DNA from: a virus
DNA length: 64,000 bases
Reading direction: 5' to 3' (one strand)
Virus record (IMG/VR): IMGVR_UViG_3300028388_003330
Location: 1 to 64,000 of that record
Position numbers and translations under genes: made by a program. Positions 9,740 to 64,000 of this stretch are shown here, piece by piece (positions within the stretch are counted from its first letter, which is position 1; every line of letters begins with the position of its first letter). The notes beneath the pieces were generated by a model, which saw nothing but the letters and a program-made list of their open reading frames with translations, had not been told where the DNA came from and searched no databases.

Positions 9740-9759
9740 AAAAGTCAGTGTTTACTTGA
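9740..9759. promoter_or_regulatory. Operator-like repeat upstream of the HTH repressor
   Basis: AAAAGT-N8-ACTTGA, matching TAAGT-N8-ACTTA with one change per arm. It lies about 75 bases before the repressor start. TTTACT within it and TATTAC 16 bases later could form the repressor promoter, so self-regulation is possible. Confidence 0.45.
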
Positions 9760-9835: not shown

Positions 9836-10258
9836 ATGACCAAAGCCACAGGAGCGCGTGCCAGTACATCAGGCAAGCAGAGCAAAGTTGCCCAATTCAT
9901 TGCCGCGCAGATCGAATTGAGCGAACTATCTCAACGGGAAATCGCAGAAATCTGCGGCTTCCCAAACCCAAACGTCATCACCATGATCAAGCAGGGGCAT
10001 TCAAAGCTCCCCATTGATCGTGTTGCGAACATGGCAAAGGCTTTACACGTTGATCCCATACGTCTGTTAAAGATCGTTCTGAGCGAGTACCAACCCGGAA
10101 TGCTGGAGGTTGTCGATAGCATCGTCGGATTTGGCTGCACGGAGAACGAGAAAGCCATCATCGAACTGTTTCGAGACGCAACCAACGACACCGATCCGCG
10201 AATTAAGACCGAAGCAGATCGGCAAGCCATCAGAAATGTGTTCGCCAAAATGGCCTGA
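9836..10258 (+). CDS. Helix-turn-helix (XRE-type) phage repressor candidate
   Basis: A 140-residue DNA-binding protein. The ATG at 9836 follows ACAGGAAAACTGAC; the longer open frame upstream is not needed. Residues about 18-70 form an XRE-like helix-turn-helix: LSQREIAEICGF, then NVITMIKQGHSKLPIDRV and AKALHVDP. The C-terminal half is helical and has no LexA-type Ser/Lys peptidase motif, so control would not be by classical RecA-stimulated self-cleavage. As first gene of the only plus-strand cassette, before excisionase and integrase, it is the best candidate for the lysogeny regulator and for the protein that binds the dispersed palindromes. Which promoters it binds is inference. Confidence 0.8.
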   Translation: MTKATGARASTSGKQSKVAQFIAAQIELSELSQREIAEICGFPNPNVITMIKQGHSKLPIDRVANMAKALHVDPIRLLKIVLSEYQPGMLEVVDSIVGFGCTENEKAIIELFRDATNDTDPRIKTEADRQAIRNVFAKMA

Positions 10259-10291: not shown

Positions 10292-10311
10292 CTAAGTAAG
10301 CTTTGACTTAA
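10292..10311. promoter_or_regulatory. Operator-like repeat between repressor and excisionase genes
   Basis: CTAAGT-N8-ACTTAA with perfect TAAGT and ACTTA arms. It ends immediately before the CAGGAGG ribosome site of the excisionase-like gene, so a bound protein could block xis-int expression. Confidence 0.6.
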
Positions 10312-34768: not shown

Positions 34769-35156
34769 AGGACAGCTCCTTGGATTTAGCAGGGAAAGTG
34801 TCGATGGAGACGGTGTAGTCGCCGGGAAGCTCGGCAGTTATTTCCAGAACCCCATCGTCCACCGTAACTCGTTCAAGCACGCCCACTGCAGATAGGGTGA
34901 CAACGGCACCAACAGGCACGCCAGACAGCGTGGCAACGTCTACACCGTCAGCGACGATGGACGTCTTATCCAGTTGAGCGGGGTTGTCGGGTCGCAGGAC
35001 AGGCTCGCCGTCAGGAAAATATGTGGACGCTGCGTCGAACTCTCCTTCATAGTGTCCCTCGTCGGCATTTACGTTATTCGCCAACCCGCTTTCAACGCCG
35101 ATGTGTATTTTGACGACGCGCCCGGTATCTGTTTTGTAGATGGTGTAAACGCTCAC
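34755..35156 (-). CDS. Small beta-rich tail-tip protein
   Basis: A 133-residue beta-rich protein (VVKIHIGVESG, VGAVVTLSAVGVLERVTV, LPGDYTVSIDTFP). Its GTG start overlaps the stop of the giant gpJ-like gene. Small proteins at this position are common in siphoviruses and often belong to the tail tip or fibres. The later strands look Ig-like. No specific family assigned. Confidence 0.68.
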   Translation of the reverse strand: MSVYTIYKTDTGRVVKIHIGVESGLANNVNADEGHYEGEFDAASTYFPDGEPVLRPDNPAQLDKTSIVADGVDVATLSGVPVGAVVTLSAVGVLERVTVDDGVLEITAELPGDYTVSIDTFPAKSKELSFVAT

Positions 35157-38100
35157 TTCTTCACCTCAAGCGCAGAGATAATTAGGTCGTCCACTTTTAC
35201 TTCTATATCGTTTCGACCGCTTTCATAGGTGTTAGAAACATACAAATCTACTGAGTACCTACGAGTCCCAGCAGGCGGAACGTCCATGTACACAAACGTG
35301 ATAAAGTCGCCGCCCCCTTCGCGATACCTCGCTATTTGAGTGCCACCATATATGTGTACATCATCTCTTTTAAGGTCCATGTACAACGAATCGTACCCAT
35401 CGCCGTTGGCGCTGGATATAACCATCCGCATACTAACTGTTATCAGCGCTTCGTTACCAGTAGCCGTATACGTTAAGTATCCGTACTCCGTCCAAGTGTT
35501 TGCAACAGTAGTAAGAGTTGTGAATTTATTCGTCGTTGGTATGGTGACCGCCCTGTCAGCTATCTTTAACGTAGTGACAGCAAGTTCATCTATCTGAAGC
35601 GTACCAACCGCAAGCTCAGCGATATGCCCTCTTTCCACAATCTCCAGGGAGTCGGCCTTCAGAGAAGAGGCTTCGATATTCCCCCTGGCGTAGATGTCGT
35701 TAAACTGGGCGTTGCCGTTTTTGTTTATCCACCAGCCAGACGTTACGTTGACGAAGTTGGTAGACTGTATCGTGTTGCCGATATAGGCATCACCTATGGC
35801 GCCAGCGGCGATAACAGTAGAAACGTTACTCTGATTAATCTCGTCGATGAACGCGAAAGTACCACTCTCTGAGCCAGCAGACTGCAGGCAGGCCCTGGCC
35901 ATGTTCCAGGCTTGGTCCCTGTTCCAGAACTCGCGGTAGTACCGCGCCTCGGAGAAGATGCCCCCGTAGTACACACCGGAACCGAGAGAAGACGTATCCC
36001 AGTCGCCTTCGCTGTTTCCGCCAATAGCCACTGCACGGGCTGTCGTTGTGAAGCTGGACGTCGTGCCGAGCGTCGAGGTCTGGTATGACCCGTCGGCGTG
36101 GAACATGTAGTAGTGGAGTTCGTTCGCGTCCTTGTCGAACGTGACGATCAGGCAGTGCCACTCGTCCTGGTATATCGCGTCAGTAAGCGTGCTGGGGTTG
36201 CCGAATGCAAGGCTGACATTCATCTTGCCGTTGCCGTCGTACGTGGATTCGGAGGTAGAAACCCCCCAGCCATCTGATAAGTCCCGAGTAACAATCCGCG
36301 CCCCTGAAGGGGGAGGCGTGGACGGGGCTTTAAAGACAAACACCCACGACTGCTGCGGGTAGGTCGCGTACGCCGTGTCCACATTCTTCGCGAGCTTGAC
36401 CCCTGCGCTGTCTATCTGGACGCCTTTGCCAAGGTTGGCCTGGACTACACTTACCGAGTTCGCGCCGTTGCTCAGAGTCACATAGCCAAGTTTGGCGGTA
36501 GCGTCCTTGAACTCTCCGCTGTCGTCATCGCTGTAATCTGTTGCAAACGACCAACGCCCAGCAAGTTTTGTCGGGTTTGGTAGGCTGTCTGGATAGCCGG
36601 TGAAGTTATCCCAGAAGTCAGCACCAACAGTTGCACCGTCTTCGATGTTGTTTAGCTTAGTGCCCTCGGCGGTGCTGATTTCCGACAGCGAGGTGGGAGT
36701 GCCGGAGAGATCGTCGTACTCGGTTGTGCCGCCACCTGGGATCGCATAGGTCGATGGGTTGGACAATGCCCCGACCCGCTCCTCGAACATGATGCCGTCG
36801 AACCACACGTCGCAACCCGCACCGCCTTCGTTGTCTACGCGAAGCAGAAGGCGGGTGGAGGTGGTATCCGCCGAAAGGTCTATCGTGGCCGTGATGCGCT
36901 TCCAATCACCGGGTGTAGCGGCGCAGGTGAAGTTGTAGCCGAGATAGGTATCGTTTAACTGCCGCCGGGTGTATAGCTGCACTGCCGCGTTGGCGGTGTT
37001 GCTGCGGACGTAGCAACTGAACAGCCACACTTTACCCGGCTCTATCGGGATGTTGTAGTTAGTTGCGCCATCACTAAGAAAGACGTACCCATTATCGCCG
37101 GTCGCCGCTATCTTTAGGCTGTGCCCACCGAAATAGCTGACAGTGGCGTCTAGGCTTACGGTAGCCGTCGACGCCTTAGCCAGCGTCGGGAAAATATTCT
37201 CGAACACCGAGTACCGATAGTTGGCAATGTTGACGCCACTACCTGCCGTGTTGTTGTAGGTACTGTCGGCGTCAAGCTCGCCCACGTAGTCGAGGTCGTA
37301 GATCGAACTGTTGGTCTTCGCCAGGGCGCTAACAAGCGGGGCACCCTTGTAGATGCTGAACGGTATGTCGAGCCACGCATCGGGGTCGTCATCAACCTCG
37401 CCAGCGTAGGCTTCAAAACCGTTGCCTTCCCCACAGCCTGGGATGCCGATGAGAACGTAAGCGCTGCGGTTCTTGAACAGATTGGTCGAGCCGTAGACCG
37501 CCTTTGATGCGCCGCAGCGGTACATCGCCGCGTCTAAGCCGTTAGCCAGACGGTTGTTCTCTGGTTCGTCGAAGCCGTAAACGACCACGATCTTGGTGTT
37601 GTCAAGAGCGTTGAGCGCAGCGGCCATCGTTGTGGCGTTAGCGACGCTACCGTAAACATCGTAGGTCTGACCAGACTCTCTGAGTCCGGTTGTGCGGTTG
37701 AACACAACCATGGTATAGGAACGCCCGATGCCCTGGATCTGGGTGTCGTCTTCGTCGTAAAGGCCATGCCCATGGGCGGAATAAGTGGCTTGGTTACCCT
37801 TAGTTACCACCCGGTACATCAGCGGACGACCTGACAAGTTGGCAGTCCAGTCAGCGCCAACGGTCGCTTCAGGCTGTACGCGGCTGACCTCGACGTGGGA
37901 CACCTTGACCGTGCCGGTACACGCGCCAACGATGATCTGCACGCTGACCTGACGGCAGTCAGGCTGCAGCGCGGCAGCAGAACCCTCCAGCCAGTACCAC
38001 TGACCTTTGGTTACACCACCATCGTCGCTTACTAGATCTGGCCACGAGCCAACGGCGGTGCTTGCGCCAGCGCTGGTTTTCTCATTCAGTTCGATCCGGA

Positions 38101-41100
38101 ATCCTGTCCCGTTGTAGTCGGTCGAGAAATACACCCGCGCGCGGCAGTACAGCTTCTCCCCTTGCAGCAGTGGGATGTACTCGCCCCTGTTGGTGTAGCA
38201 TGTCTGACCATAGGCTGTCGCCGTGGGGTTGACCACTTGCCAGCAGGGACCGCCGTCTTCCGCCCCCGTAGCCGATACCGTGGCGCCCCCCGTGACGTTC
38301 CAGAACGACGTGTCGCCGGACGCGTACTTTATGAATCCCGGATCGCCGCAGAAGTTGTAGCCCATCGGCGCGTACTTGTTCAGCAACTGCTCGTCGGGCG
38401 GCATGTTATCTAGGTTAGTGCCCCAGGTTGCACCTACGGTCGCGCCTTTCTCGTATCCACCGATAGGCCGTATCTGCACGGCGTCTACGTCGTAGTAACG
38501 TGACGTTGCCGTCCAGTGGTACACAGCGAATGAGGCAAATTTGGCCCCGGCTGTTGGAGTGTATGTGTAGGTGTCTTCTTGCCACGTCGTTCCGGGGTAC
38601 TGCCCGTTGTTATATACAGAAACGAACGTGGTTCTAGTATCAGTCAACGCACTAGTACCACCAGCTCCTATGTGAGTTTTGCCCTCCGCGAGCGCAGAGC
38701 TTTTCTCGTTGAACCGGAGATACAGCCCAGTAGTGCCTACGCTCTCAGCACGATGGCGAATCGTTACCTCGTAAGTTTGCTTGTCGTCGATGGGTATTGC
38801 GGGCCACCCGTAAGCAACGCTGGCGTCATTCGCGTGGGAAATACGCATCCACGTCTTAGTGGAATCGCCCCAAGCAAATGCAGCCTTGCTATTCGTGCTT
38901 TCAACCGCTTCTATACCAGCAGGTTTGCCGTCTGGGCCGTTTATGGACAGGTTCCAGTTCGGCAGCATCCCTGAAACAGCCGATACGTCCCAGGCCGGAG
39001 TAGCCTTGACGACGATGTTTTCCGTTGCAGCACCGTCGGCGTTTGACGCCCATATCGCGATGGTGTTGGTGCCTTCAACAGCGTCCCCAACGCGGTAAAA
39101 CCACCAGCTTGTGTTATCAGGCTGCGAGCTAACTTCGTTGTAGTGTAGGTTTGCGCCTATGGTCGTTCCATTGAGTGCGAGTTGCACCCCGCCTTCAGCA
39201 TCGCGTATCAGGACGCCGATAATGATCTTACCCGCCACGGGGCAGTTGAATGTCCACGTATCGGCGCTAGCAATCGTCGTGCTCATGGGAATGCTGTCGT
39301 TGATGGCCCCTGTAGTGAACAGAGTGGACCCAGCAGCGAACGCAGCCTCTAGCGCGTCATACCATTCCTGCTTGGTCTGGCCTACAGTCGCACCGTCTTC
39401 GATGTTAGTTAACTTAGTGCCCTCGGCGGTGCTGATCTCCGACAACGAGGTTGGTGTACCAGAAAGGTCGTCGTATAAAGTTGTTCCACCTCCGGGTATC
39501 GCGTAAGACGAGGGGTTGGACAATGCCCCGACCCGCTCCTCAAACATAATGCCATCGACCCACAGATCACATCCTGCACCGCCGTCGTTATCAATACGAA
39601 GGCGAAGACGAGTTGAAGTGTCTGCGCTAAGGTCAAGCGTCCAGGTGATACGTTTCCAATCACCGGGCGTAGCCGCGCAAGTAAAACTGCCACCTGGGGT
39701 AGTGCCGTCGGAGTTCCTTACGGCACGCAACTGCACTGCGGAGTTTGCGAGACTGCTGCGGACGTAGCAACTGAACAGCCAAACCTTACCGGGTTCGATA
39801 ATTACGTTCCAGTCGCTAGCGTTTTCGGCAAGAAGAACATAACCATCATTGTCGGTTGCCGATATTTTCAGACTGTGCCCACCGAAATAGCTGATGGTGT
39901 CGTCGTAACTAACCGTTGCGCGGACAGGTACTAACGTCGGGAAAATGTCCTCGAATACCGAGCAACGGTAGTCGGCAATGTTGACGCCACTGCCTGCCGA
40001 GTTGTTATAGGTGTTGTCGGCATCAAGCTCGCCCGTGTAGCCAAGACCGAGAATAGTTACCTTTCCTCCACCGGCTCCAGACAGCGTCCCGTCGTCGGCT
40101 AGTTCAATGACGGTGTTGTCAATAGATTTATCAAAGAACGCAAACCGCAGGTTGTCGAAAATGACGGTGCCTTGGAACTGCCCACCGGACATGCCGGTAT
40201 AAGACGCCATTAGGTGAATCTGTAATCTATATATCTGCTCGCCAGGGTTAAGGCGGGCGGTAAACGGTACTTTCTGCCAGCCGGTGGTCGTCAGCGGGGC
40301 TGTGAACGGTGTCCGCCTGTAGCTCCCGGAGGTGTTATAGAACAGATCAACCAGAATACCTGGGCGTCCGCCTGCGACATAGTTTTCAATGTATATGTCG
40401 AACGCACCGGAGACGAAGGTATCAGCCGGAAGCGGGGTGTCGTAGAACGACACAGTGCGAACTATGCCGAAGTTAGTGGCAGCCGGTACGACAAACTTCA
40501 CCGCGTAGGGGCCGATGCGCCTGAGCGTCGTCTCTTTTACTGGAGTGCCCACTCCGTAGCTGTTCCACCCTGTTGGCCTAGTCTGACCATCCGGCCAATC
40601 ACTGAACGTCGGGTTGAAGCCTAGAGCAACTGAATCGTCGTTGGTGTAGATGCTGTCGTAGGGGATGTTGGTGACGTTGCTGTTGAAGTCAGCGCCTACG
40701 GTCGCGCCGTCTGCTGGCAGGTTGGTGTTGGTTGCTATCAGCGAACTGAGTACGTCGATGCCAGTACCGGCTGCGGTAGTCCATTTTCTACCAATGGCGA
40801 CAATGCAGTCAGTGTCCAGCGGTGTGAACGTGTATTTCACATTGCCGTTATCAACCGCCTGCCATGTATCCGTGTCAATGTCATAAATCGCGCCGAAGAA
40901 TTCAACGGCAGTTCCGAAATTGTTGGCGAACCGTGTGTTAGGGGACTCGTCCGTATAGATGATGTAGAACGGGTCTTGCTTAATCCCACCTTCCCACGCC
41001 GTGTTTAGCTGGGTGTCGTTGGTTATGCTGCGCTTCGTCCCATCCGGGTGATAGAACGTTGTGCCCGTTATGCGGATCTCACCGGGGTTCGCACTACCAT

Positions 41101-44100
41101 CCCCAAGTTCGTTTTTAAGTAACCTAACATCGCCGAACCCACCAGTGTGCATCGACCCCAGCGCAGCGCGATTGAGAGCAACAGGAACACCAGACACTCC
41201 GTCCCAATTTGCCGTATCACCAAGACCTGCGCCGTCAGTCAGTTCACTAGTGTTTGTGATGTAATTGGCGTTGAGTGCGCCCGTATAGTCGAGGTCAAGA
41301 ACGCTACCGCCAGAAAAATTGATTCCATCCCAATTTATCTTGCCGCCCGACTGCAAGACGATATTGCCAGATGAATCGCGAATCGTTATTTGCGAAAATT
41401 CTGCCGATCCAGATTTATCAATCCTCCAACCACTTGTTGGCGTGTAGTTAAGGCTTTGAATGTAATCGCCGATTTTCGCAGTGGAAATAGTGCCATCTTG
41501 TATATAAGTTTCATCGATATATACAACGCCATTGCGAACAATAAATGGTACAGATACATCAACGCCATTCGGATCAAGAATAGAAAACTGATTCGCAAGA
41601 ATCGCCACCTCTGAACTGGTGGTTCCAGATTGATCGTTTTCAACAGAGAGACCAATACCTGCTATTGCTGTTTTTCCATCAGCGGCACGAGCTTCTACTT
41701 TTACGGTGTATTCTGAGGAAAGAAGCCCGTCTTTATCTGCACGCGCTTTGGCTTCTCGCTGAACTGCCGCTATTCCCAAGCCGTCATAGTCCCTAAGAGC
41801 CCGACGCATACCACGAGCAACATACTCATCGTCGCTCAGGTTGTTAAGCCGCAGCATGAAAGGGGCGGTTCCTTCAAACCGCACCGGGCCGCTGTAGAGC
41901 GTCGGGTCCACGCCGCCGATATTACCAACTTCGACTTTGCCGACGTTGTCGCGAGATGCGTAGGACAGGTCGTGGGTGGCGACTACGCCCGTGGAGTCGA
42001 TAACAGTGATAACGCAGGGCTCTACTGCCGCAACAACGTAGTCAGATACGTTATGGGCAATAAGATAAGTGTCGCCCAGCATCTTCGTCGAGATAGCGGG
42101 TTCGCAGTCGCCACCGGCGCTGTCGCCAATAGCCGTAGTCTGAACGAGTCCAGGGGAAGTGATGTAGTGCGAATTGCCGAGTGATGTTTTCTCGTACGAC
42201 GAGTTTACGCTGTCATAAATAACACTGGTGTAGCGCGCCGCCAGAATCTCACGCGCCATCGGCAACAGACAGGTGTAGTCACCAGCGTTACCCTCGGCGA
42301 AGGCGACGATATCCGAACTGGACTCGATAATGACAAACGCCGGTTCAGTAACCGTCGTTGACCACGTCTGCACCGTGCCGGACGGGACCGTGACCGTAGC
42401 AGTCGGCGAGCTAAAATCATACAGCGGCGTGCCAGCATTGTTTATCTTGACGACTGCAGATCCCGACACCGCATAAAAATACAAAGTTACCGGCGAATAG
42501 CGGTTGTAGTAATGCCCGAAGTATCTGCCGCAATCAGAGAATGCTGGAACCTGATCGCCGCGATCCTGTAGCTCAAACTGCGTGGGCTTGTTCGCCGTGA
42601 ATATGTCACCAAGAGACGCGGTACGAGTGATGACACTCATCGCGTCCAGCGGGCCAGCGGTCTCTACACTGTTTTGGTAGATGTAGGTGCCGTCTTCCAG
42701 CGCTGCGATGCGAATGGTCTGGTCTCCGGAGGACCCGAGCACCACCCTTGGAGACGTAAGCGCCTGCGCATTTATATAAGAAGGTTCATCAGATCGAACA
42801 TCAGTCAATGCCGAAAGCTGTTGAATAGATTCTGCTCGGGCGGTTTGTTCATCAGAGATTACATCGTCGACATAGGTAATTGAGGCTTTGAGATCAATAT
42901 CAGCCTGAAGACCGTCGTCGGCAGTTTGATAATCCGTTTCCAGTTGAGAGATTGCGGTAGCTCTTGCCGTCGTTTCATTAGAGACTGCCGTGTCTACATA
43001 AGTAATAGACGCCTTCGACGATGAAAGGTCGTTATAACCCCAGTCCGAATAAACAGGAACAACCTCATAACCTGCGGGTGTGTAGGTATGATCACCAATC
43101 GCATCTGCAACAGCATCTTGGCGAGTATCGATCCAGCTATTACCTACAACGCCATAGACTGAAACCTGTACTCGACCAGCAATTTCTTTGGCGTTTTCCA
43201 GATTCAGTACATAAATGGTTGTCTTGTTTGCTGTTGGGTCATGATAGACCGCCAACCGATCTGGAATTTCTACATCATTGCGCCAACGATATACAGCGGT
43301 TCCTACAAACGTACCAATACCGTCATGTACAAGACCGTTACTGTTTGTAAAAACAGAAATATCAACGTCTGCTGAATTATCTTGGCGACCAGCCCTTGTA
43401 CCGTAACGGACGCGACCAGATAGAGCTAGTCCGTGATAATTACCGGTATTTGTATACTCAAATATCTTAAACGCCGCTGTTGTGCCACTGCCGTTATGAA
43501 TCTTTAGATCAACGTTATAAACCGTTTCAACTGCAGGTAGCGAAACCTTATCAAAATCACCAATGGGCACACCGTTCTGCAGATCGGTAACATCATCGGC
43601 GATAAGAGAATCGGCAGCTTTATAATCAGCGTCTAACTGCGACAACGCCGTGGCGCGAGCCTGCTGCTCATCAGAAATTACATCGTCGACATAGGTAATT
43701 GATGCTTTGGCATCAATATTGGTCTGAAGACCTGCGTCAGCAGCTTTGTAATCGGTATCTAACTGCGTCAACGCTGTCGCACGAGCCTGCTGCTCATCAG
43801 CGATTGCATCATCGACATAGGTAATCGACGCTCTGGTATCGATAGCGTAATCGGCGGTAGCGTCTTCCAGCATTATTGCGCCGACTTCCGTTGTTCCTGC
43901 TACACCGCCATAGTTGGCAATGAAAACGGGACGCATATAGCGAACGTTTTCGTGAGCAAGATGCGGGGCCTCTGCTGTGCTAGCGCCCGAATAATCTCCA
44001 AGCGGCGAGCCGTACCCTTTGGTATAACCGGTAATAACTTCCCAAGTTGCTGCTATGGTGCTTTTACCACCGCCAGTGGTGTGATAGTGCTGATTGTTGA

Positions 44101-47100
44101 AAACGTTATCGCCATTGATGTTGACATACGTCGTTCCATCGGACGCAATGCCCTCAAAACCCGCGTAGAAAGTACCGGTTCCAGCCGTCCTACGAATAAT
44201 AACGGTCCATTTATAGATACGCTCTGGATCAAACGGAATTAGGCTGTTATGAGCCAACCAGTGAAGATCATCGCCCGAGTTATCACCGATTCTTAGAAAC
44301 TTACCGCCCATATAGCTATCAGCGGCGGTTTGAATCGATAGCTCCCCAGTTCCTTGTCTGGTGATCCAGTAATTCAAGGCATTGGCGTCTTCCCAAGTTT
44401 CTTGGAAAATGAGATTGCCGGAGTTTGACGCCGTCGCTTCAAGCGCTTGGATTGCCTGAGTGTGCGAACTTAAAGTGCCTGCTTGATCAATATAAACTGT
44501 CGTTTCTAGGTTATCGATAGCCTGAGCGCTAGCACTAAGACCCGTTTCCGAGTCGTCAATTGACGCCTGAACAGCATCTAGACGATTGGCGTTAGCAACG
44601 ACGCCTCTTTCACTATCTTCTACCGTCGTTTCAAGATCGCTAATAGCAATAGAATGCGCTGCTACAGCGTCGCCAAGACTGGAGTAATCACCGATTTTCG
44701 TCCAGTAAGCGGTATCGGTAGGAAGAGGCGAAGGTGGAAAAACAGCCGTCGTATCCTGAATACACCGATAAAGCGAACCGTTGTAAGCAACGATATCGTC
44801 TACAAAATATTCAGTATTCGCATCAAAATCAGGCGTACCTTCAAGCGCCGCCACTTGAGTCTGGAGAGTATCTACCGCGCCCTCTAGGTCTGTCGTTCTA
44901 TCGTCAAGACCGGTAGTAGGCGTATCAATTAAATTAATTCTGCTATTGAGCGAAGCGGTTAATTCGCTCTCTGAAATCTGACCCTGAAGATCGGCTAATG
45001 TAATACCGAAGTCTTCAATGACGACACTAACCTCAGAGCTAAACGTTAGATTGTCTTTGCCCCAAATGTCATACGCCGCAACACGGACATACCAAGTTTC
45101 ACCGTTATTGGCGGTTATCAGACAACCATTGCCAGTACCTTCATATACCTTGTTTGTATTTATATTTGGAGTAAAGCCAATGGTTTGAGATGCGCAAACG
45201 ATATATCCGCCAACATCAACATCGCCTACACGATCCCAGCCAGCAGCATACTGCGTCTCAGCGTTATTAACGAAAAGATTGCTTGGCGCAGAACTAATCT
45301 GCGGGTTCGTAACGATAATACTTGCGGAGCTACCAGTGGTTCCGCTATAGAGTCTAGCTTTAACCCTAACCGTGATTGAACGATTAATCTGTCCGTCGTT
45401 CTGAGCATCCGCCCATGTATAGGTGTAAGACGGATCTCCAGTGTATGAAATTCGAACAACGGCTGAATTGATTTCAACCTGAACCTCGTAGTCGTAAGCC
45501 TCTTCCAGCTCGTCCCAGCGAACCGTAAAGCGATCCGAAATGAACGGACTTACCAGACCAAGATTCTGAACCTGACCGGGCGGGGCAACTTGAGTGCCGT
45601 TAACAGCGTTAAAATCACTATAAACGCCATCTGTAGTTACTGCTTTAACCCAATAAAAATAACTGATGCCCTGATTAACTGCGGCATCTGTGAAAGTCGC
45701 CTCTTTTGTACGTCCTATTTCTACCGCCGTACCGTTATCATCACTGGCACTGCGATAAACAACGATTTCGTCGTATATGCCTGTTGGCGGCGTCCAACTA
45801 AGGCTAACGATTGTTCCAATTGCAGTCGCAGTAAGGTTTGTAGGCGTAGTTACATCTGGGCGCGCAGTAGAACTAAACGCGATGGTTGGCGCACCAGCAA
45901 AAGTGGCCCGACGACCAACAATGTCAAAAGCAACGACCTTAAAGAAGACAGAAACGCCAACAGGGATGCGATGACGATACTCCAATGTCCGCATATCAAC
46001 CTGACCAACCTTCTCGTAAGGTGCGCCATCAACGGACATATGAATATCTGCACCGCCATAAACACCTGAAGCGGGATACGACCAATACAGATTTGCAACA
46101 GGAAGATAGCTGTTACCTATCTTCTCATATTCTTGGTAGACGCCTAGATCAACAACCTGCCCAATCTGTTGAGGTGCCTCATATATAGGCAACTCAATAT
46201 TATTGTCAACATTATATATTGCCGAATTATACTCAATGGCCCGGATTGTACGAACTTCATGACCAGAACCATTAATTGCAATAACGCGAAATGGACGCTT
46301 GACTAGGGTAACCGGCCCTAGCATAAATTTTGCGTATTTTGGAGGGGCTGAACCTAACGACGAGGCTACGGTTACCGATGATGTTAAACCCGGCGCGTTT
46401 GTAATATCTCGCTCAATTATTACATCAGTATCGTAAATAGTATAATCATGACCAGCAACGATACCAATGGTGTTTTCTATTTCAACACCATAATTTCCAG
46501 ATCCGTCATCATATACAACGCGACGAATTCGATGATCAACGCCGTTAATAACAGCGCGTGTTACGTTGGTATTGCCGTCATAACTGTTCAACCATACAAT
46601 GCCGCCTCCTACTGCTACGCCAGACACCGTACCGGTTGCGCGAGAAATCTTGTCGTAATTAATAAGCAGTCGGTAAGTAATACCGTCTAGTAACTCAACC
46701 TCTTGATCAAGGTTAACAACACTAACCGTGGAATTCGCTTCCAGCCGACCGCTGTACTCCCAATTCGGGAGATTATGCTGTACAAGTATCTGACTACCAA
46801 CCGTACAAGCAATAGACTCTACCGGCGCATCAAACGTAATGCTTTTGGTAATGTACTTGTTTAAGTTAAGTTGAAATACCGCCTCATTAACGGCTTGTTG
46901 TTTATCGGTACAACCAAATAACGTTATCCTTGCCGTTTTTACGTCATCAGTTGGCAAAAGAGATGGGTCGCGAACCTTTAATGTGGTTCTTTCATAATCG
47001 TTTTCTGAATCAAAGTAGGTAACTTCGATTTCATTTGCCCTGTCAGTCATGGGCAACCAAGTCATCTTAAATGACTTCTCGACAATGTTACCTACGTTGA

Positions 47101-48817
47101 ACATCATTACCGGGTCGTCCGCTTTTTCAAGCGCGACCTGATAACGCGTTCCAACGTTTACGATTTGCGCATGACCAAGGCGAAGGACATACTGCAAAAC
47201 ATCCCAAACGTTTGAGGCTGTATCAAAAACGCCGTTAAATACTAAAGAGTTGTCATCGCAATGATCGGCCCACTCTTGCCAAGAATCGATATCAAGACGA
47301 GACTCATCAATTCCTCCGCCATAACGCTTGTTCGTTAATATGTCATACGTTATCCAAGCGGGATTATTCGAAGCCTCATATGTCCAAGTGCCAACGTTAT
47401 TAACATAACGACGGACCTTTATATATTTGCCACCATGCAGATATGTAACGTTGGGAATTGAATTAACTTGATCTGAGGCGCGAAGCTTGACGGCAAGTAG
47501 AGCTGTGTGTCGATATGCGACCTTGTCATTTACGATTTCAGCCACATCGTCATAATTAACGATGTCAACCGTCTGTTCATCAGAAGACGGTGCATCACTG
47601 CGCCGGACGCGAATCTCATAAAAATCTTCAACCAGTTCTGGTGAAGTAAATGTTCTTTGAACGCGAGACCTTCCGCGACCAGAAATTGTAGTTGGTTCAG
47701 TAAAGTTGCCGATTTCTAACTTTTGACCAACAATTTGAAGAGTGGTGTCATCTTGAATAAGCCCGCTATCTAAAAGTGCGGTTCCCGCTCTAAGCGATGA
47801 CTCATAGGTATCGGTGTCAGTGTAATAATATTGCGTAACGTATGTGGTTACAGCGTCGAAATTATAAAGCGTTATCCACTCTGCATCCCCAAGCCGACGA
47901 TATTGACAATCTAAAGCAACTGTAACGGTTGCGACATCGCCATTATCTTTGTAATGCGCAAGACCAGCAGGCGCAGAGAAATCTACTCGAAATTGATCAA
48001 TTTCGGTTGTAGTTGTGTGAACTATCCAATCAACCTCATTTAATTCGATATTCTTTGCGTGCTCGGTGATATTCTGATTAAACCAAGGAATAACGGTCTG
48101 ACCGCCTGTACCCGGACGTACAGCAGTTTCCCAATCACTGAAATTTTCGATGGGTTGATCATTCAGTTTAATTTCCCCAACGCCAGCAATTGGACCTTCG
48201 CCAGCATTGAGAAGCATGTAAAGAATTTGATCATCGCCAGAATTAACCGTATGCAACGCAATTCGGTTTCCAGCGACTCTAAAGCGCCCATAAACCAAAG
48301 GAATAGGCACTTCTTCAGATGATGTGTTTTTGGGGCCTGCGAATCCATAGGAGGGACTATCGTCCGCATCTTGGAAATTCTTCGGCATAATTGGCTTTAT
48401 TGGCAACAGCGTATTGATCAGCAAACCGCCAATCATCGTGATGCCAGCGGTATACGCATAGCCGATGCCCGTTAGTGCCCCTGCAGCGGTTGCCCCACCC
48501 GGAAGCGCAAGAGCAATTTGGGGAGCAAAAATCGCAACAGCGAGAAACGCAACCAAGCGGAGAATGTTTTTGTCGTCACCGCCCTGCGGAACAGGACAAA
48601 CAACGATACTATCACCCGCCCTGACAGGAACCGAGTAAATTTCCTGCTCAGGAACTAAAGCGCCGTTAAGAGAAACAACAATCTCTTTGTAGGGCGAAGA
48701 AATGTATTCACCGAGATTCTTGCCTGACGACCATTCGGGCTTACTACGCGTATAATCCCGTGGATCAAACGGGTTGTTAATTACGGTGAGAAAAATTGTT
48801 TCAGTTTTCACCGACAT
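35153..48817 (-). CDS. Giant gpJ-like tail tip/host-specificity protein
   Basis: A 4554-residue protein, about four times lambda gpJ. Residues 1-150 hold a beta-grasp, gpI-like segment (SLNGALVPEQEIYSV) and two hydrophobic helices. The gpJ core follows (YGRFRVAGNRIALHTVNSG; TNKRYGGGIDESRLDIDSW). Fn3 domains lie near 985-1075 and ASITYVDD coiled-coil repeats near 1650-2010. A DUF1983-like GWRIDKSG segment is near 2450. Two similar carbohydrate-binding-like modules occur near 2926-3149 and 3842-4068, with an ILEI/PANDER-like domain near 3662-3822, a LamG-like domain near 4083-4326 and a second GWWINKNG segment near 4345. It should form the tail tip and bind receptors. The start overlaps the gpK-like gene by 17 bases. 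Confidence 0.92.
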   Translation of the reverse strand: MSVKTETIFLTVINNPFDPRDYTRSKPEWSSGKNLGEYISSPYKEIVVSLNGALVPEQEIYSVPVRAGDSIVVCPVPQGGDDKNILRLVAFLAVAIFAPQIALALPGGATAAGALTGIGYAYTAGITMIGGLLINTLLPIKPIMPKNFQDADDSPSYGFAGPKNTSSEEVPIPLVYGRFRVAGNRIALHTVNSGDDQILYMLLNAGEGPIAGVGEIKLNDQPIENFSDWETAVRPGTGGQTVIPWFNQNITEHAKNIELNEVDWIVHTTTTEIDQFRVDFSAPAGLAHYKDNGDVATVTVALDCQYRRLGDAEWITLYNFDAVTTYVTQYYYTDTDTYESSLRAGTALLDSGLIQDDTTLQIVGQKLEIGNFTEPTTISGRGRSRVQRTFTSPELVEDFYEIRVRRSDAPSSDEQTVDIVNYDDVAEIVNDKVAYRHTALLAVKLRASDQVNSIPNVTYLHGGKYIKVRRYVNNVGTWTYEASNNPAWITYDILTNKRYGGGIDESRLDIDSWQEWADHCDDNSLVFNGVFDTASNVWDVLQYVLRLGHAQIVNVGTRYQVALEKADDPVMMFNVGNIVEKSFKMTWLPMTDRANEIEVTYFDSENDYERTTLKVRDPSLLPTDDVKTARITLFGCTDKQQAVNEAVFQLNLNKYITKSITFDAPVESIACTVGSQILVQHNLPNWEYSGRLEANSTVSVVNLDQEVELLDGITYRLLINYDKISRATGTVSGVAVGGGIVWLNSYDGNTNVTRAVINGVDHRIRRVVYDDGSGNYGVEIENTIGIVAGHDYTIYDTDVIIERDITNAPGLTSSVTVASSLGSAPPKYAKFMLGPVTLVKRPFRVIAINGSGHEVRTIRAIEYNSAIYNVDNNIELPIYEAPQQIGQVVDLGVYQEYEKIGNSYLPVANLYWSYPASGVYGGADIHMSVDGAPYEKVGQVDMRTLEYRHRIPVGVSVFFKVVAFDIVGRRATFAGAPTIAFSSTARPDVTTPTNLTATAIGTIVSLSWTPPTGIYDEIVVYRSASDDNGTAVEIGRTKEATFTDAAVNQGISYFYWVKAVTTDGVYSDFNAVNGTQVAPPGQVQNLGLVSPFISDRFTVRWDELEEAYDYEVQVEINSAVVRISYTGDPSYTYTWADAQNDGQINRSITVRVKARLYSGTTGSSASIIVTNPQISSAPSNLFVNNAETQYAAGWDRVGDVDVGGYIVCASQTIGFTPNINTNKVYEGTGNGCLITANNGETWYVRVAAYDIWGKDNLTFSSEVSVVIEDFGITLADLQGQISESELTASLNSRINLIDTPTTGLDDRTTDLEGAVDTLQTQVAALEGTPDFDANTEYFVDDIVAYNGSLYRCIQDTTAVFPPSPLPTDTAYWTKIGDYSSLGDAVAAHSIAISDLETTVEDSERGVVANANRLDAVQASIDDSETGLSASAQAIDNLETTVYIDQAGTLSSHTQAIQALEATASNSGNLIFQETWEDANALNYWITRQGTGELSIQTAADSYMGGKFLRIGDNSGDDLHWLAHNSLIPFDPERIYKWTVIIRRTAGTGTFYAGFEGIASDGTTYVNINGDNVFNNQHYHTTGGGKSTIAATWEVITGYTKGYGSPLGDYSGASTAEAPHLAHENVRYMRPVFIANYGGVAGTTEVGAIMLEDATADYAIDTRASITYVDDAIADEQQARATALTQLDTDYKAADAGLQTNIDAKASITYVDDVISDEQQARATALSQLDADYKAADSLIADDVTDLQNGVPIGDFDKVSLPAVETVYNVDLKIHNGSGTTAAFKIFEYTNTGNYHGLALSGRVRYGTRAGRQDNSADVDISVFTNSNGLVHDGIGTFVGTAVYRWRNDVEIPDRLAVYHDPTANKTTIYVLNLENAKEIAGRVQVSVYGVVGNSWIDTRQDAVADAIGDHTYTPAGYEVVPVYSDWGYNDLSSSKASITYVDTAVSNETTARATAISQLETDYQTADDGLQADIDLKASITYVDDVISDEQTARAESIQQLSALTDVRSDEPSYINAQALTSPRVVLGSSGDQTIRIAALEDGTYIYQNSVETAGPLDAMSVITRTASLGDIFTANKPTQFELQDRGDQVPAFSDCGRYFGHYYNRYSPVTLYFYAVSGSAVVKINNAGTPLYDFSSPTATVTVPSGTVQTWSTTVTEPAFVIIESSSDIVAFAEGNAGDYTCLLPMAREILAARYTSVIYDSVNSSYEKTSLGNSHYITSPGLVQTTAIGDSAGGDCEPAISTKMLGDTYLIAHNVSDYVVAAVEPCVITVIDSTGVVATHDLSYASRDNVGKVEVGNIGGVDPTLYSGPVRFEGTAPFMLRLNNLSDDEYVARGMRRALRDYDGLGIAAVQREAKARADKDGLLSSEYTVKVEARAADGKTAIAGIGLSVENDQSGTTSSEVAILANQFSILDPNGVDVSVPFIVRNGVVYIDETYIQDGTISTAKIGDYIQSLNYTPTSGWRIDKSGSAEFSQITIRDSSGNIVLQSGGKINWDGINFSGGSVLDLDYTGALNANYITNTSELTDGAGLGDTANWDGVSGVPVALNRAALGSMHTGGFGDVRLLKNELGDGSANPGEIRITGTTFYHPDGTKRSITNDTQLNTAWEGGIKQDPFYIIYTDESPNTRFANNFGTAVEFFGAIYDIDTDTWQAVDNGNVKYTFTPLDTDCIVAIGRKWTTAAGTGIDVLSSLIATNTNLPADGATVGADFNSNVTNIPYDSIYTNDDSVALGFNPTFSDWPDGQTRPTGWNSYGVGTPVKETTLRRIGPYAVKFVVPAATNFGIVRTVSFYDTPLPADTFVSGAFDIYIENYVAGGRPGILVDLFYNTSGSYRRTPFTAPLTTTGWQKVPFTARLNPGEQIYRLQIHLMASYTGMSGGQFQGTVIFDNLRFAFFDKSIDNTVIELADDGTLSGAGGGKVTILGLGYTGELDADNTYNNSAGSGVNIADYRCSVFEDIFPTLVPVRATVSYDDTISYFGGHSLKISATDNDGYVLLAENASDWNVIIEPGKVWLFSCYVRSSLANSAVQLRAVRNSDGTTPGGSFTCAATPGDWKRITWTLDLSADTSTRLRLRIDNDGGAGCDLWVDGIMFEERVGALSNPSSYAIPGGGTTLYDDLSGTPTSLSEISTAEGTKLTNIEDGATVGQTKQEWYDALEAAFAAGSTLFTTGAINDSIPMSTTIASADTWTFNCPVAGKIIIGVLIRDAEGGVQLALNGTTIGANLHYNEVSSQPDNTSWWFYRVGDAVEGTNTIAIWASNADGAATENIVVKATPAWDVSAVSGMLPNWNLSINGPDGKPAGIEAVESTNSKAAFAWGDSTKTWMRISHANDASVAYGWPAIPIDDKQTYEVTIRHRAESVGTTGLYLRFNEKSSALAEGKTHIGAGGTSALTDTRTTFVSVYNNGQYPGTTWQEDTYTYTPTAGAKFASFAVYHWTATSRYYDVDAVQIRPIGGYEKGATVGATWGTNLDNMPPDEQLLNKYAPMGYNFCGDPGFIKYASGDTSFWNVTGGATVSATGAEDGGPCWQVVNPTATAYGQTCYTNRGEYIPLLQGEKLYCRARVYFSTDYNGTGFRIELNEKTSAGASTAVGSWPDLVSDDGGVTKGQWYWLEGSAAALQPDCRQVSVQIIVGACTGTVKVSHVEVSRVQPEATVGADWTANLSGRPLMYRVVTKGNQATYSAHGHGLYDEDDTQIQGIGRSYTMVVFNRTTGLRESGQTYDVYGSVANATTMAAALNALDNTKIVVVYGFDEPENNRLANGLDAAMYRCGASKAVYGSTNLFKNRSAYVLIGIPGCGEGNGFEAYAGEVDDDPDAWLDIPFSIYKGAPLVSALAKTNSSIYDLDYVGELDADSTYNNTAGSGVNIANYRYSVFENIFPTLAKASTATVSLDATVSYFGGHSLKIAATGDNGYVFLSDGATNYNIPIEPGKVWLFSCYVRSNTANAAVQLYTRRQLNDTYLGYNFTCAATPGDWKRITATIDLSADTTSTRLLLRVDNEGGAGCDVWFDGIMFEERVGALSNPSTYAIPGGGTTEYDDLSGTPTSLSEISTAEGTKLNNIEDGATVGADFWDNFTGYPDSLPNPTKLAGRWSFATDYSDDDSGEFKDATAKLGYVTLSNGANSVSVVQANLGKGVQIDSAGVKLAKNVDTAYATYPQQSWVFVFKAPSTPPPSGARIVTRDLSDGWGVSTSESTYDGNGKMNVSLAFGNPSTLTDAIYQDEWHCLIVTFDKDANELHYYMFHADGSYQTSTLGTTSSFTTTARAVAIGGNSEGDWDTSSLGSGVYYGGIFSEARYYREFWNRDQAWNMARACLQSAGSESGTFAFIDEINQSNVSTVIAAGAIGDAYIGNTIQSTNFVNVTSGWWINKNGNAQFNDIYARGNIEASSLKADSLEIVERGHIAELAVGTLQIDELAVTTLKIADRAVTIPTTNKFTTLTTVANTWTEYGYLTYTATGNEALITVSMRMVISSANGDGYDSLYMDLKRDDVHIYGGTQIARYREGGGDFITFVYMDVPPAGTRRYSVDLYVSNTYESGRNDIEVKVDDLIISALEVKK

Positions 48818-49821: not shown

Positions 49822-49850
49822 AGTATCTAATTGATGACTTATGGTGTCAA
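49822..49850 (-). promoter_or_regulatory. Sigma70 promoter with operator-like spacer before the gpL-like gene
   Basis: Minus strand: perfect TTGACA at 49850-49845, 17-base spacer containing ATAAGT-N8, then GATACT. The -10 ends seven bases from the ATG, so transcription probably starts at or next to the start codon. Confidence 0.65.
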
Positions 49851-61680: not shown

Positions 61681-62976
61681 TTAGATAGACAGACCCCTTA
61701 TATTGGTCAATCGCACCGGATATTCGTACTCAATGCAATAGCCAAGCGCATCTGTGGCGTGTTCCACACTCATCATTTTGTCGATCTCTGGCGACCCTTC
61801 CTTATAGATGGTCTGCTCGAAAGACTGGATGGTTTCCTTGCATTTTTCATCGACCCGCAAACGGACTCGACCGTCGGCTGACATGAGCATGCGATTCACG
61901 GCATTTACTCTGTCTTTGACCTTTGGATGGCTGTAATGATATTTCATTCTCTTGAAACCGCGCTCCCTGAAAATATCCAGATCCGATTCACCCCTGGCGT
62001 GCTGACGATGCCCACCTGCGGGGTCAGGGTAGATGGTCGTACTCCGCAAATAACGCCAAAAGCGTCGCTCTAGCTCATTACAGGTTTCTTCTGTGTTGGA
62101 ACCGTACAGGATCACCTCGTCAACAACCCAAAGTTCGCCATTCCGCTGTGGCTGCATGATGATCGAAGTCATGGGGTCGATGTTGAAGTCCTGACCAACC
62201 CAGATAGGGAGATTCTCGTTAAATTGCAGCTTTCCAACGTGCAAACCGCGATCAAACGGGTAATAAACCCTACCCGACATGGTTTCAAAGCTAGCCTCAA
62301 ACTCCTGCTTGAAGGACTTGGCGTCCATGTCGCGGCGAGCCTGTTCGATCTCGGAATCAGGGATAAAAGGCGAGGAAATGCTCGGAAACTGCCAAGATTC
62401 CCATTGATTTGTCGAAATATATTCGGGCTGTTGACCCAAAACGTACAGATCGTACAGGTGATTAAATGACTTCGGAGTCCCGATAAAAAGTGCATGACCT
62501 CCAGTGCTGGCGAGAGTCGGACGAACCGCTTCTTGCCACACTTCCCACTTCATGTCCTGAAACTCGTCCAAAACCACATAATCCAGACCAACGCCGCGCA
62601 GCGTATCCGGCTTATCAGCGCCCTTACACTCAATCATGGAGCCATTAATGAGCCGAACCGTCATGGTCGTCTCATTCAGCTTTTTGATCCATTGGGAGGG
62701 GATGGCTTCGACAAGTTCATCCCAGATAATCTGTTTTGCCATTCGATAGGTTGGCGCGATGTACCAGACCTTCTGCTTGGCTTTGCGCGTACGATGGATC
62801 ATGGTGGTTTTGGCAAGCTGAGTTTTACCCCAGCGTCGACCGGCAACAACCACTTTAAAGCGCGCCTTAGATCGATAAACGAGTTCTTGACCTGGGTGCA
62901 GAAGAAGATTGTTCTTGGGTTTTTCAACCCGCGCCAATTCCTCCAATACAGGGTCTAAACTAGCCGTTGAGTGCAT
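61681..62976 (-). CDS. Terminase large subunit
   Basis: A 431-residue packaging motor. The ATPase domain has Walker A VVAGRRWGKTQ near residue 43 and Walker B YVVLDEFQD near 140, with the coupling motif FIGTPKS. The nuclease domain shows VGQDFNIDPMTS and TIYPDPAGG acidic residues and DALGYCIEYEYP at the end. It cuts concatemers and drives DNA into the prohead. Its start lies inside the end of the small subunit gene. Confidence 0.95.
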   Translation of the reverse strand: MHSTASLDPVLEELARVEKPKNNLLLHPGQELVYRSKARFKVVVAGRRWGKTQLAKTTMIHRTRKAKQKVWYIAPTYRMAKQIIWDELVEAIPSQWIKKLNETTMTVRLINGSMIECKGADKPDTLRGVGLDYVVLDEFQDMKWEVWQEAVRPTLASTGGHALFIGTPKSFNHLYDLYVLGQQPEYISTNQWESWQFPSISSPFIPDSEIEQARRDMDAKSFKQEFEASFETMSGRVYYPFDRGLHVGKLQFNENLPIWVGQDFNIDPMTSIIMQPQRNGELWVVDEVILYGSNTEETCNELERRFWRYLRSTTIYPDPAGGHRQHARGESDLDIFRERGFKRMKYHYSHPKVKDRVNAVNRMLMSADGRVRLRVDEKCKETIQSFEQTIYKEGSPEIDKMMSVEHATDALGYCIEYEYPVRLTNIRGLSI

Positions 62977-63613
62977 TCTTGATATCTTCTTCGGATTCCC
63001 GACTGATTTCTTCTAACTCATCAACCGATGTTTCCAACTGCTCAAGCGGCACGACACCCGAACGCAATTCTGCTTCTCTTTGAACCTCTTTGACTTCGTC
63101 TTCGGTCATGCCGCGAATGATCAGTTCCGGCAAATCCCTTTCCTGTTCGTCCTCTTTGTCCATGTCAGTAGCCTTGGCTCTCTGATCAAAGGCTTTCTGC
63201 TGGATGCTCAAGGCTCGCTCAATGGAGCGAAGATCAGGCTCTACTGACGCTAGGCTAACGCCGTTTTTCATAGCATCGGCAACGATCTTCATTCCGGCCT
63301 TAGCCAACACCGTTGCGTTGTTGTAGTGGAACTGTTTGGTGTCGATTTGCCTTTTTGCAATTATTTTTGCATTCCAAACATCGGCGCGAACCAATTCCTC
63401 GTGAACCTTTTTCCGATGCTCTTCTGCCTTCTCACCGTAGCGAATCCCCCATTCCTTCATTTTGCGCGAAACGGTTTCACGCCGAACGCTGTATTTTTCA
63501 GCGATATCCATAAGGCGCATCTCACCCATTGCCCAAATAGCGGCAATTTCTTGCCACTGTTTTTTGGTCAGGCGATTACCTTTGTTGGTGTCTTTGTTTG
63601 TTCCGTCACTCAT
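62960..63613 (-). CDS. Terminase small subunit-like protein
   Basis: A 217-residue protein with an N-terminal helix-turn-helix (LTKKQWQEIAAIWAMGEMRL, then IAEKYSVRRETVSRKMKEWG) and an acidic C terminus. It lies directly upstream of the large subunit and would recognise the packaging site. The ATG at 63613 is preferred; a TTG six codons upstream lies almost in the terminator. The palindrome at 63749-63841 is a candidate target. Confidence 0.82.
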   Translation of the reverse strand: MSDGTNKDTNKGNRLTKKQWQEIAAIWAMGEMRLMDIAEKYSVRRETVSRKMKEWGIRYGEKAEEHRKKVHEELVRADVWNAKIIAKRQIDTKQFHYNNATVLAKAGMKIVADAMKNGVSLASVEPDLRSIERALSIQQKAFDQRAKATDMDKEDEQERDLPELIIRGMTEDEVKEVQREAELRSGVVPLEQLETSVDELEEISRESEEDIKNALNG

Positions 63614-63629: not shown

Positions 63630-63659
63630 AAAAAAATGGGCGTATGCTGGGATACGCCC
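63630..63659 (-). terminator. Intrinsic terminator between late promoter and terminase
   Basis: Minus strand: GGGCGTAT pairs with ATACGCCC around six bases, followed by A and seven T. It would end transcripts from the promoter at 63688-63716 after about 50 bases unless antitermination occurs. Confidence 0.88.
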
Positions 63660-63687
63660 TAACACAGGAGGGACTGCAATTAAGGGC

Positions 63688-63716
63688 ATTATAGGTTTGA
63701 GTATAAATATGGTCAA
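63688..63716 (-). promoter_or_regulatory. Strong sigma70 promoter, probable late promoter
   Basis: Minus strand: TTGACC, 17 bases, TATAAT. It points at the terminase genes and the whole structural operon. The predicted start is near 63681. Confidence 0.82.
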
Positions 63717-63748
63717 TCATTTATGACTAATTTCCCGCAGCGAATGGC

Positions 63749-63841
63749 GTGGGCACTTTTTCGTTTTCCTCTAGTATTAATACTCTTGGTATTAAAATAC
63801 TTAAATAATATTAATACTACGGAAAACGCAAAAGTGCCCAC
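63749..63841. repeat. 93-bp imperfect palindrome beside terminase
   Basis: Arms GTGGGCACTTTT...CGTTTTCC and GGAAAACG...AAAAGTGCCCAC pair over about 21 bases with one mismatch, and inner TAGTATTAATA/TATTAATACTA segments extend the pairing. The centre is AT-rich. It is non-coding and lies between the last gene and the late promoter. Candidates: packaging site, origin or bidirectional RNA structure. Confidence 0.8.
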
Positions 63842-63844
63842 ACC

Positions 63845-64000
63845 TCACAGATCGAAGTCCTCGTAGGTAAGAGGAAGACCGCTCGGGGGGAAACAGGTTT
63901 CATCCTTCGGATTAACCATTCCCATGATTCGGTATCCTGCTGCTGTCGGAGCGAGAATAACTCTTCGGCGACCTCTGCGAATCTCTTTTCCGTTTTTCAC
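63845..64000 (-). CDS. C-terminal part of a small phage protein (partial)
   Basis: The visible 51 residues (VKNGKEIRRGRRRVILAPTA, then GYRIMGMVNPKDE and LTYEDFDL) are basic at the start and acidic at the end. The frame is open at the window edge; the last codon in view is GTG, so it may start here or continue. No family recognised. It precedes the packaging region on the same strand. Confidence 0.6.
   Translation of the reverse strand: MKNGKEIRRGRRRVILAPTAAGYRIMGMVNPKDETCFPPSGLPLTYEDFDL

Follow-up and report, generated by a model that had tools for sequence, protein, structure and literature searches.

A putative terminator-gated, repressor-controlled late-gene module upstream of the terminase genes of an SSU5/RHEph10-type phage-plasmid

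The intergenic region preceding the small terminase subunit gene, terS, of the viral contig IMGVR_UViG_3300028388_003330 harbors a near-consensus sigma-70 promoter which is followed by an intrinsic terminator. The resulting module is considered to be, with somewhat better than even probability, a terminator-gated, repressor-controlled form of late-gene control in an SSU5/RHEph10-type phage-plasmid. Judged from its sequence and from that of its relatives, the promoter-stop arrangement is very probably a real switch which works like the late switch of lambda without the known parts of the latter. The analysis was centered on a window of 64,000 nucleotides (positions 1 to 64,000 of the 80,202-base contig).

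In the proposed mode of action, the late promoter is probably shut in the prophage state by a phage repressor bound to a dyad over the -35 hexamer, as other phage promoters probably are. Once free, the promoter would drive transcription toward terS, the large terminase subunit gene terL, and the structural genes. Most polymerases are predicted to produce a short leader and to stop at approximately +52, yielding an RNA of ~52 nt, and the late genes would be expressed only as far as polymerase reads through the terminator. Such read-through presumably rises in the lytic phase and is most likely the function of an antitermination factor. A CUCC motif beside the terminator hairpin may act as a loading or licensing signal for read-through or as the seed of a leader-derived small RNA (sRNA). 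The layout and its conservation, the dyad, the CUCC motif, and the lack of space for another promoter ahead of terS are evident from the sequences; that the promoter is active and repressed, and that transcription terminates and is read through under regulation, is what we infer.

The promoter-terminator module and its recurrence among relatives

The contig is assigned to the SSU5/RHEph10-type phage-plasmids, of which it is taken to represent a possibly incomplete genome, because its TerL is 60 to 62% identical to those of SSU5, RHEph10, and nickie-type phages and because it has in common with these phages the gene order ParB-like, ParB-like, ABC ATPase, phrog_900, terS, terL, and portal. Related TerL, terS, portal, ParB-like, ABC ATPase, and helicase genes were all found in the same order. 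The terS gene (62960 to 63613, minus strand) encodes a phrog_867 product with a DNA-binding domain and is read from an ATG at 63613, with an in-frame TTG at 63631; when TerS was used as the query against viral contigs, no matches were obtained. It is followed by terL (61681 to 62976, minus strand) and preceded, in the same direction, by the 3′ part of a gene (63845 to 64000, minus strand) specifying a 113-amino-acid phrog_900 protein with no assigned function. A large interrupted inverted repeat with arms of ~21 bp (GTGGGCACTTTTGCGTTTTCC and GGAAAACGAAAAAGTGCCCAC) occupies positions 63746 to 63844. Of the 72 relatives, 26 have a comparable repeat ahead of terS, while shuffled sequences gave none, and the termini of the SSU5 record map within the equivalent repeat of that phage; the repeat at 63746 to 63844 is, therefore, considered a probable cos or packaging site.

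The promoter facing terS on the minus strand, TTGACC-17-TATAAT, with its -35 hexamer at 63711 to 63716 and its -10 hexamer at 63688 to 63693, matches 11 of the 12 sigma-70 consensus positions, being the best sigma-70 promoter and the sole 11/12 match in the whole contig. Its predicted start lies at approximately 63681. Following a leader of 22 nt, sequence inspection and folding identified a GC-rich hairpin of eight pairs, GGGCGTAT-CCCAGC-ATACGCCC, at approximately +23 to +44 (63638 to 63659, minus strand; -11.7 kcal/mol for the hairpin alone), which is separated by a single A from seven T residues at 63636 to 63630, specifying a U7 run that ends at +52. The terminated leader RNA, as deduced from the positions of the -10 hexamer and the U run, would thus span 63630 to 63681 (minus strand). 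The entire stretch from 63630 to 63716 is intergenic, and the start codon of terS is situated 16 nt from the U run and 24 nt from the end of the hairpin. This promoter-terminator pair is unique both within the window and within the contig. The first-pass annotation, in which a near-consensus promoter directed at terminase and a GC-rich hairpin with seven T residues some 22 to 50 bases after the start had been described, is confirmed at these coordinates, and the pR′-tR′-like order of promoter, terminator, and terminase which it had recognized is kept in relatives whose sequences have diverged.

This order is best read as a pR′-tR′-like gate. The strongest reason is that, whichever promoter is used, a polymerase producing terS mRNA has to pass the terminator: the distance between the U run and the ATG is too short to accommodate a promoter, so that any terS mRNA must originate from polymerase which has moved beyond the stop. 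The same lack of space for a further promoter between terminator and terS is a recurrent feature in relatives.

To assess conservation, 96 relatives were collected through TerL searches. Removal of redundancy left 72 upstream regions, that of this phage among them; the relatives, represented by metagenomic or draft contigs, are not independent of one another and had their genes predicted with a simple caller. A strong terminator in the interval from -200 to +120 relative to the terS open frame was present in 26 of these 72 regions, as opposed to a mean of 0.55 (range, 0 to 3) in 20 dinucleotide-shuffled sets. In its canonical form it was absent from the other 46, RHEph10 and SSU5 types among them, and the gate is, therefore, not essential to this phage type. 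Thirty promoter-terminator rows were listed, a few of them doubtful (the second row of L038 is spurious, while the promoters of L033 and L085 are weak), and approximately 29 modules were recognized. Their common order comprises the dyad, a TTGACN or TTTACN hexamer, a spacer of 16 to 19 nt (mostly 17), a -10 hexamer, a leader of mostly 21 to 50 nt, and a GC-rich hairpin of about -10 to -22 kcal/mol followed by 6 to 8 U residues. The stems vary considerably (GGGC, GGCGGG, GGGGCAG, TTGGGCACG, and others); this divergence of stem sequence, coupled with the persistence of pairing and of the U run, implies that selection acts on the RNA terminator.

The promoter-terminator pair is the sole one in three of the relatives (G001, G005, and G008) and one of two in a fourth (G016). 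In a quick TerL tree, the layout was present in 29 of the 31 rows of one clade and in deep lineages represented by this phage, L084, L085, L088, L040, and L058, and it was absent from the rhizobial RHEph10-like and enteric SSU5-like branches. The L088 version of the layout, from which the CUCC motif is missing, resides in Chitinibacter tainanensis DSM 15459, a host available in culture.

The leader RNA and its CUCC motif

The leader of this phage harbors an anti-Shine-Dalgarno-like CUCC motif within UCCCUCCU (63667 to 63670, minus strand), 7 nt before the hairpin. The corresponding CTCC is present in 25 of 30 leaders, compared to 7.0 expected from shuffled leaders (maximum of 14 in 500 sets), and is usually located 0 to 7 nt before the hairpin, four leaders having it inside the hairpin itself; the modules of L087, L088, and L037 lack it. 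An earlier suggestion that the short leader RNA could have a role of its own is strengthened by this conserved motif. An opposite-strand open reading frame behind GGAGG was also considered and was found not to be conserved in the few relatives compared by eye.

It is possible, at less than even odds, that the ~50-nt RNA is itself the product, i.e., an sRNA whose CUCC seed pairs with Shine-Dalgarno sequences on mRNAs of the phage or of its host, in which case the terminator would represent the ordinary 3′ end of the RNA and terS would receive leak-through only. Such a role is consistent with the retention of CUCC while leader and stem sequences change, with the leaders folding on average 1.3 kcal/mol less than their shuffled counterparts, and with the hairpin and U7 run, a sequence sign which fits Hfq. 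The motif is short, however, and is missing from the three modules named above; in the predicted fold of this RNA its first CUC is unpaired, in favor of this reading, but the remainder takes part in a weak stem. The leader furthermore has no match in Rfam, the hits obtained being weak ones between microRNA families and the long inverted repeat, which are attributed to chance.

Precedents for an RNA of this kind have been reported. StxS is an Hfq-binding sRNA derived from pR′-tR′ of Shiga toxin phages (PMC7873438) and, like the leader RNA predicted here, is a short RNA from a late promoter which is stopped at the leader terminator; it measures 74 nt and is made in lysogeny, whereas the RNA considered here would measure ~52 nt, carries CUCC, and originates from a promoter which is probably repressed in lysogeny. 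The alpha-r14 sRNAs possess conserved unpaired CCUCCUCCC anti-Shine-Dalgarno seeds and variable stems (PMC10746234), and the combination of a conserved CUCC-type seed with variable stems is common to these alpha-r14/cuckoo RNAs (NfeR1) and the phage leaders. The former are non-phage RNAs with three hairpins, each displaying an unpaired CCUCCUCCC, while a single hairpin in a phage late leader is present here. A regulatory RNA and gating of the late genes are compatible rather than exclusive.

Passage through the terminator

A rather unlikely, though by no means negligible, alternative to a gate is that the terminator acts as a fixed attenuator, lowering late expression by a constant factor through passive read-through and requiring no antiterminator. 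Constitutive partial read-through would leave the same sequence pattern as a gate, and it is in keeping both with the existence of relatives without the terminator and with the negative outcome of the searches for a Q-like gene and for pause and binding elements. The strength of the hairpins and U runs across the relatives, on the other hand, exceeds the need for mild damping, for which a weaker promoter would suffice, and the retention of the terminator despite diverged sequence argues that the stop has a use. No gene family was exclusive to the terminator-bearing genomes in a comparison which is weak, being based on a simple open reading frame caller and on five genomes without the terminator.

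The first-pass annotation had predicted either a Q-like antiterminator or one acting through nascent RNA, and neither prediction was borne out in its strict form. Antitermination of the HK022 put type depends on a leader RNA which folds into two put stem-loops. Such a mechanism is not supported for this phage, the leader of which measures 22 nt and has little structure, and an antiterminator formed by pairing between the leader and the 5′ arm of the hairpin was likewise rejected in view of the reduced folding of the leaders.

The layout does resemble that of lambdoid pR′-tR′ regions under the control of Q (lambda, 21, and 82), in which a strong sigma-70 promoter is followed by an early intrinsic terminator with the late genes behind it; in the module described here, the terminator lies ~50 nt from the start and terS is situated directly behind it. 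A similar arrangement precedes the alpB lysis operon of Pseudomonas aeruginosa, where the promoter-loaded factor AlpA bypasses the intrinsic terminator tB. Q depends on a binding element located between the -35 and -10 hexamers and on a -10-like pause at the very beginning of the transcript (PMC6606751), as does AlpA (PMC9371919). Neither was evident in the terS module: the initially transcribed region of this phage contains no -10-like sigma-pause element (no A-N3-T hexamer), such elements were not enriched in relatives (3 of 24, compared to 3.2 expected from shuffles), and a conserved Q-binding element in the -35/-10 spacer is doubtful, no position being well conserved when 15 relatives were compared. 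Short inverted repeats are in weak excess in this spacer (P of ~0.01), an observation which was made after looking and is not relied upon. Profile searches for the Q families PF03589 and PF06530, the controls of which worked, returned no member from 16 genomes, among which the contig of this phage may be incomplete; a search with PF06323, run without a working control, also returned no match. Because AlpA and 21Q are dissimilar in sequence (PMC9371919), family searches could miss a Q protein, a diverged factor, or a structural analogue. Despite this and despite the matching arrangement of elements, a genuine loader of the lambdoid Q or AlpA type acting at the terS promoter is improbable given the missing pause and the lack of conservation in the spacer. 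As far as tested, the late module resembles pR′-tR′ in its probable working, but the evidence does not identify it as a Q system.

The dispersed dyad, a candidate repressor, and flanking genes

An operator-like dyad, TTAGTCATAAATGATTGA (63713 to 63730, minus strand), overlaps the -35 hexamer of the terS promoter, with its center at approximately -41 from the predicted start; it matches 11 of the 14 positions of the consensus TAAGTCA-N4-TGACTTA. We take such a repressor-type dyad across the -35 hexamer to be unlike lambda. Most terS promoters of this type carry the consensus or a near match over the -35 hexamer, often altered to TGATTGAC and thereby containing TTGAC. The contig harbors 22 sites with at least 11 of 14 matches (compared to ~3 in shuffles) and 11 sites with at least 12 (compared to ~0.3), examples within the window being those at 10293, 32541, 56168, 59159, and 61653. 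A second good promoter, TTGACA-17-GATACT (49850 to 49822, minus strand), precedes the tail genes and has a dyad at 49824 to 49841 over its -10 hexamer.

Across the relatives G001 to G027, assessed together with a control dyad, the dyad mostly occurs 10 to 40 times per genome, being infrequent in G003, G012, G014, and G023 and present at most once in G022 and in the phages SSU5, nickie, hairong, and BUCTxx99. Nearly all of the sites detected in two host genomes fall within the phage-plasmid contig. The centers are mostly outside genes, as illustrated by G007, where 37 of 38 are intergenic in a genome which is 12% non-coding, and about half of the intergenic dyads lie 0 to 40 nt before a start codon. 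While -10-like hexamers are in excess within 22 nt of the dyad edge, no single peak indicative of a fixed -10 spacing was obtained across all dyads.

A candidate for the dyad-binding repressor is encoded at 9836 to 10258 (plus strand). This HTH_37/HTH_3 gene is flanked by dyads upstream (9741 to 9758) and downstream (10293 to 10310), an upstream dyad being found in 9 of 10 genomes, and the profile of its product matches the N-terminal region of one protein of known structure which bears the name immunity repressor (8bny; E = 6e-6). In its occurrence the gene follows the dyad, with G009 and G023 as exceptions. Among 32 genomes, 23 possess both gene and dyads, 5 neither, 3 (one of them a fragment) dyads only, and 1 the gene only, with two marginal HTH matches scored as absent (Fisher P = 0.0015, uncorrected for kinship). 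The dispersed, intergenic distribution of the dyads, tracking a gene which itself has an upstream dyad, leads us to infer a repressor network.

For C1 of P1, 22 asymmetric operators are scattered over the genome (PMC8546580), and the operators and stoperators used by L5-type repressors are likewise asymmetric and dispersed (PMC9283540). As in those systems, where 20 to 40 copies of one site occupy promoters and short intergenic gaps, a single type of site is distributed across the phage genome, both in promoters and in the spaces separating genes. The P1 (17-bp) and L5 (13-bp) sites are asymmetric, whereas the 18-bp dyad is symmetric and its binder is a prediction; the pattern suggests a P1-C1-like or stoperator-like repressor network with a symmetric site. 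That the dyad instead serves as a TerS or ParB binding site in packaging or partition is quite unlikely: the terS region does combine a dyad with the adjacent probable cos repeat and with ParB-like genes close by, but SSU5, nickie, hairong, and BUCTxx99 possess terS and ParB-like genes with next to no dyads, and the HTH gene tracks the dyad better. It is highly improbable that the terminator belongs to the upstream operon of ParB-like, ABC ATPase, and phrog_900 genes and is unrelated to the promoter, since, even though this operon has the same direction, a plain operon terminator would be placed before the terS promoter and the stop is situated after it in nearly all terminator-bearing relatives.

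A more encompassing scenario, which is tentative and on balance unlikely to hold in full, would apply to a broad group of proteobacterial phage-plasmids: one dyad-binding repressor would shut the late promoter and mark the gaps between operons, a ~50-nt anti-Shine-Dalgarno RNA would be made first, and terminase would follow after a non-Q read-through which uses CUCC. If so, the leader RNA would regulate translation before terminase appears. No account of a late-gene switch in SSU5-type phage-plasmids, which are widespread, was found in the partial open-access literature library which was searched. The terS module offers concrete cis elements for testing, suggests that terminator gating of late genes occurs outside lambdoid phages and without known Q signals, and would tie such gating to a dispersed repressor-site network and a possible phage sRNA.

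Additional features of these genomes were recorded. Among the structural genes is an open frame of 4,554 amino acids (35153 to 48817, minus strand), relatives of which are present in all 11 compared phage-plasmids. A run of small consecutive genes specifying similar coiled-coil proteins (RDEARAE..., RAENERLR...), which resembles repeated duplication, occupies positions 8719 to 11532 of L003 (contig positions 70719 to 73532). At positions 2204 to 3280 (minus strand) of L003, adjoining the ParB-like genes and terS, an ABC-type ATPase is fused to a GNAT acetyltransferase domain, and the corresponding stretch of SSU5 contains two distinct genes, each with the annotation ABC ATP-binding protein.
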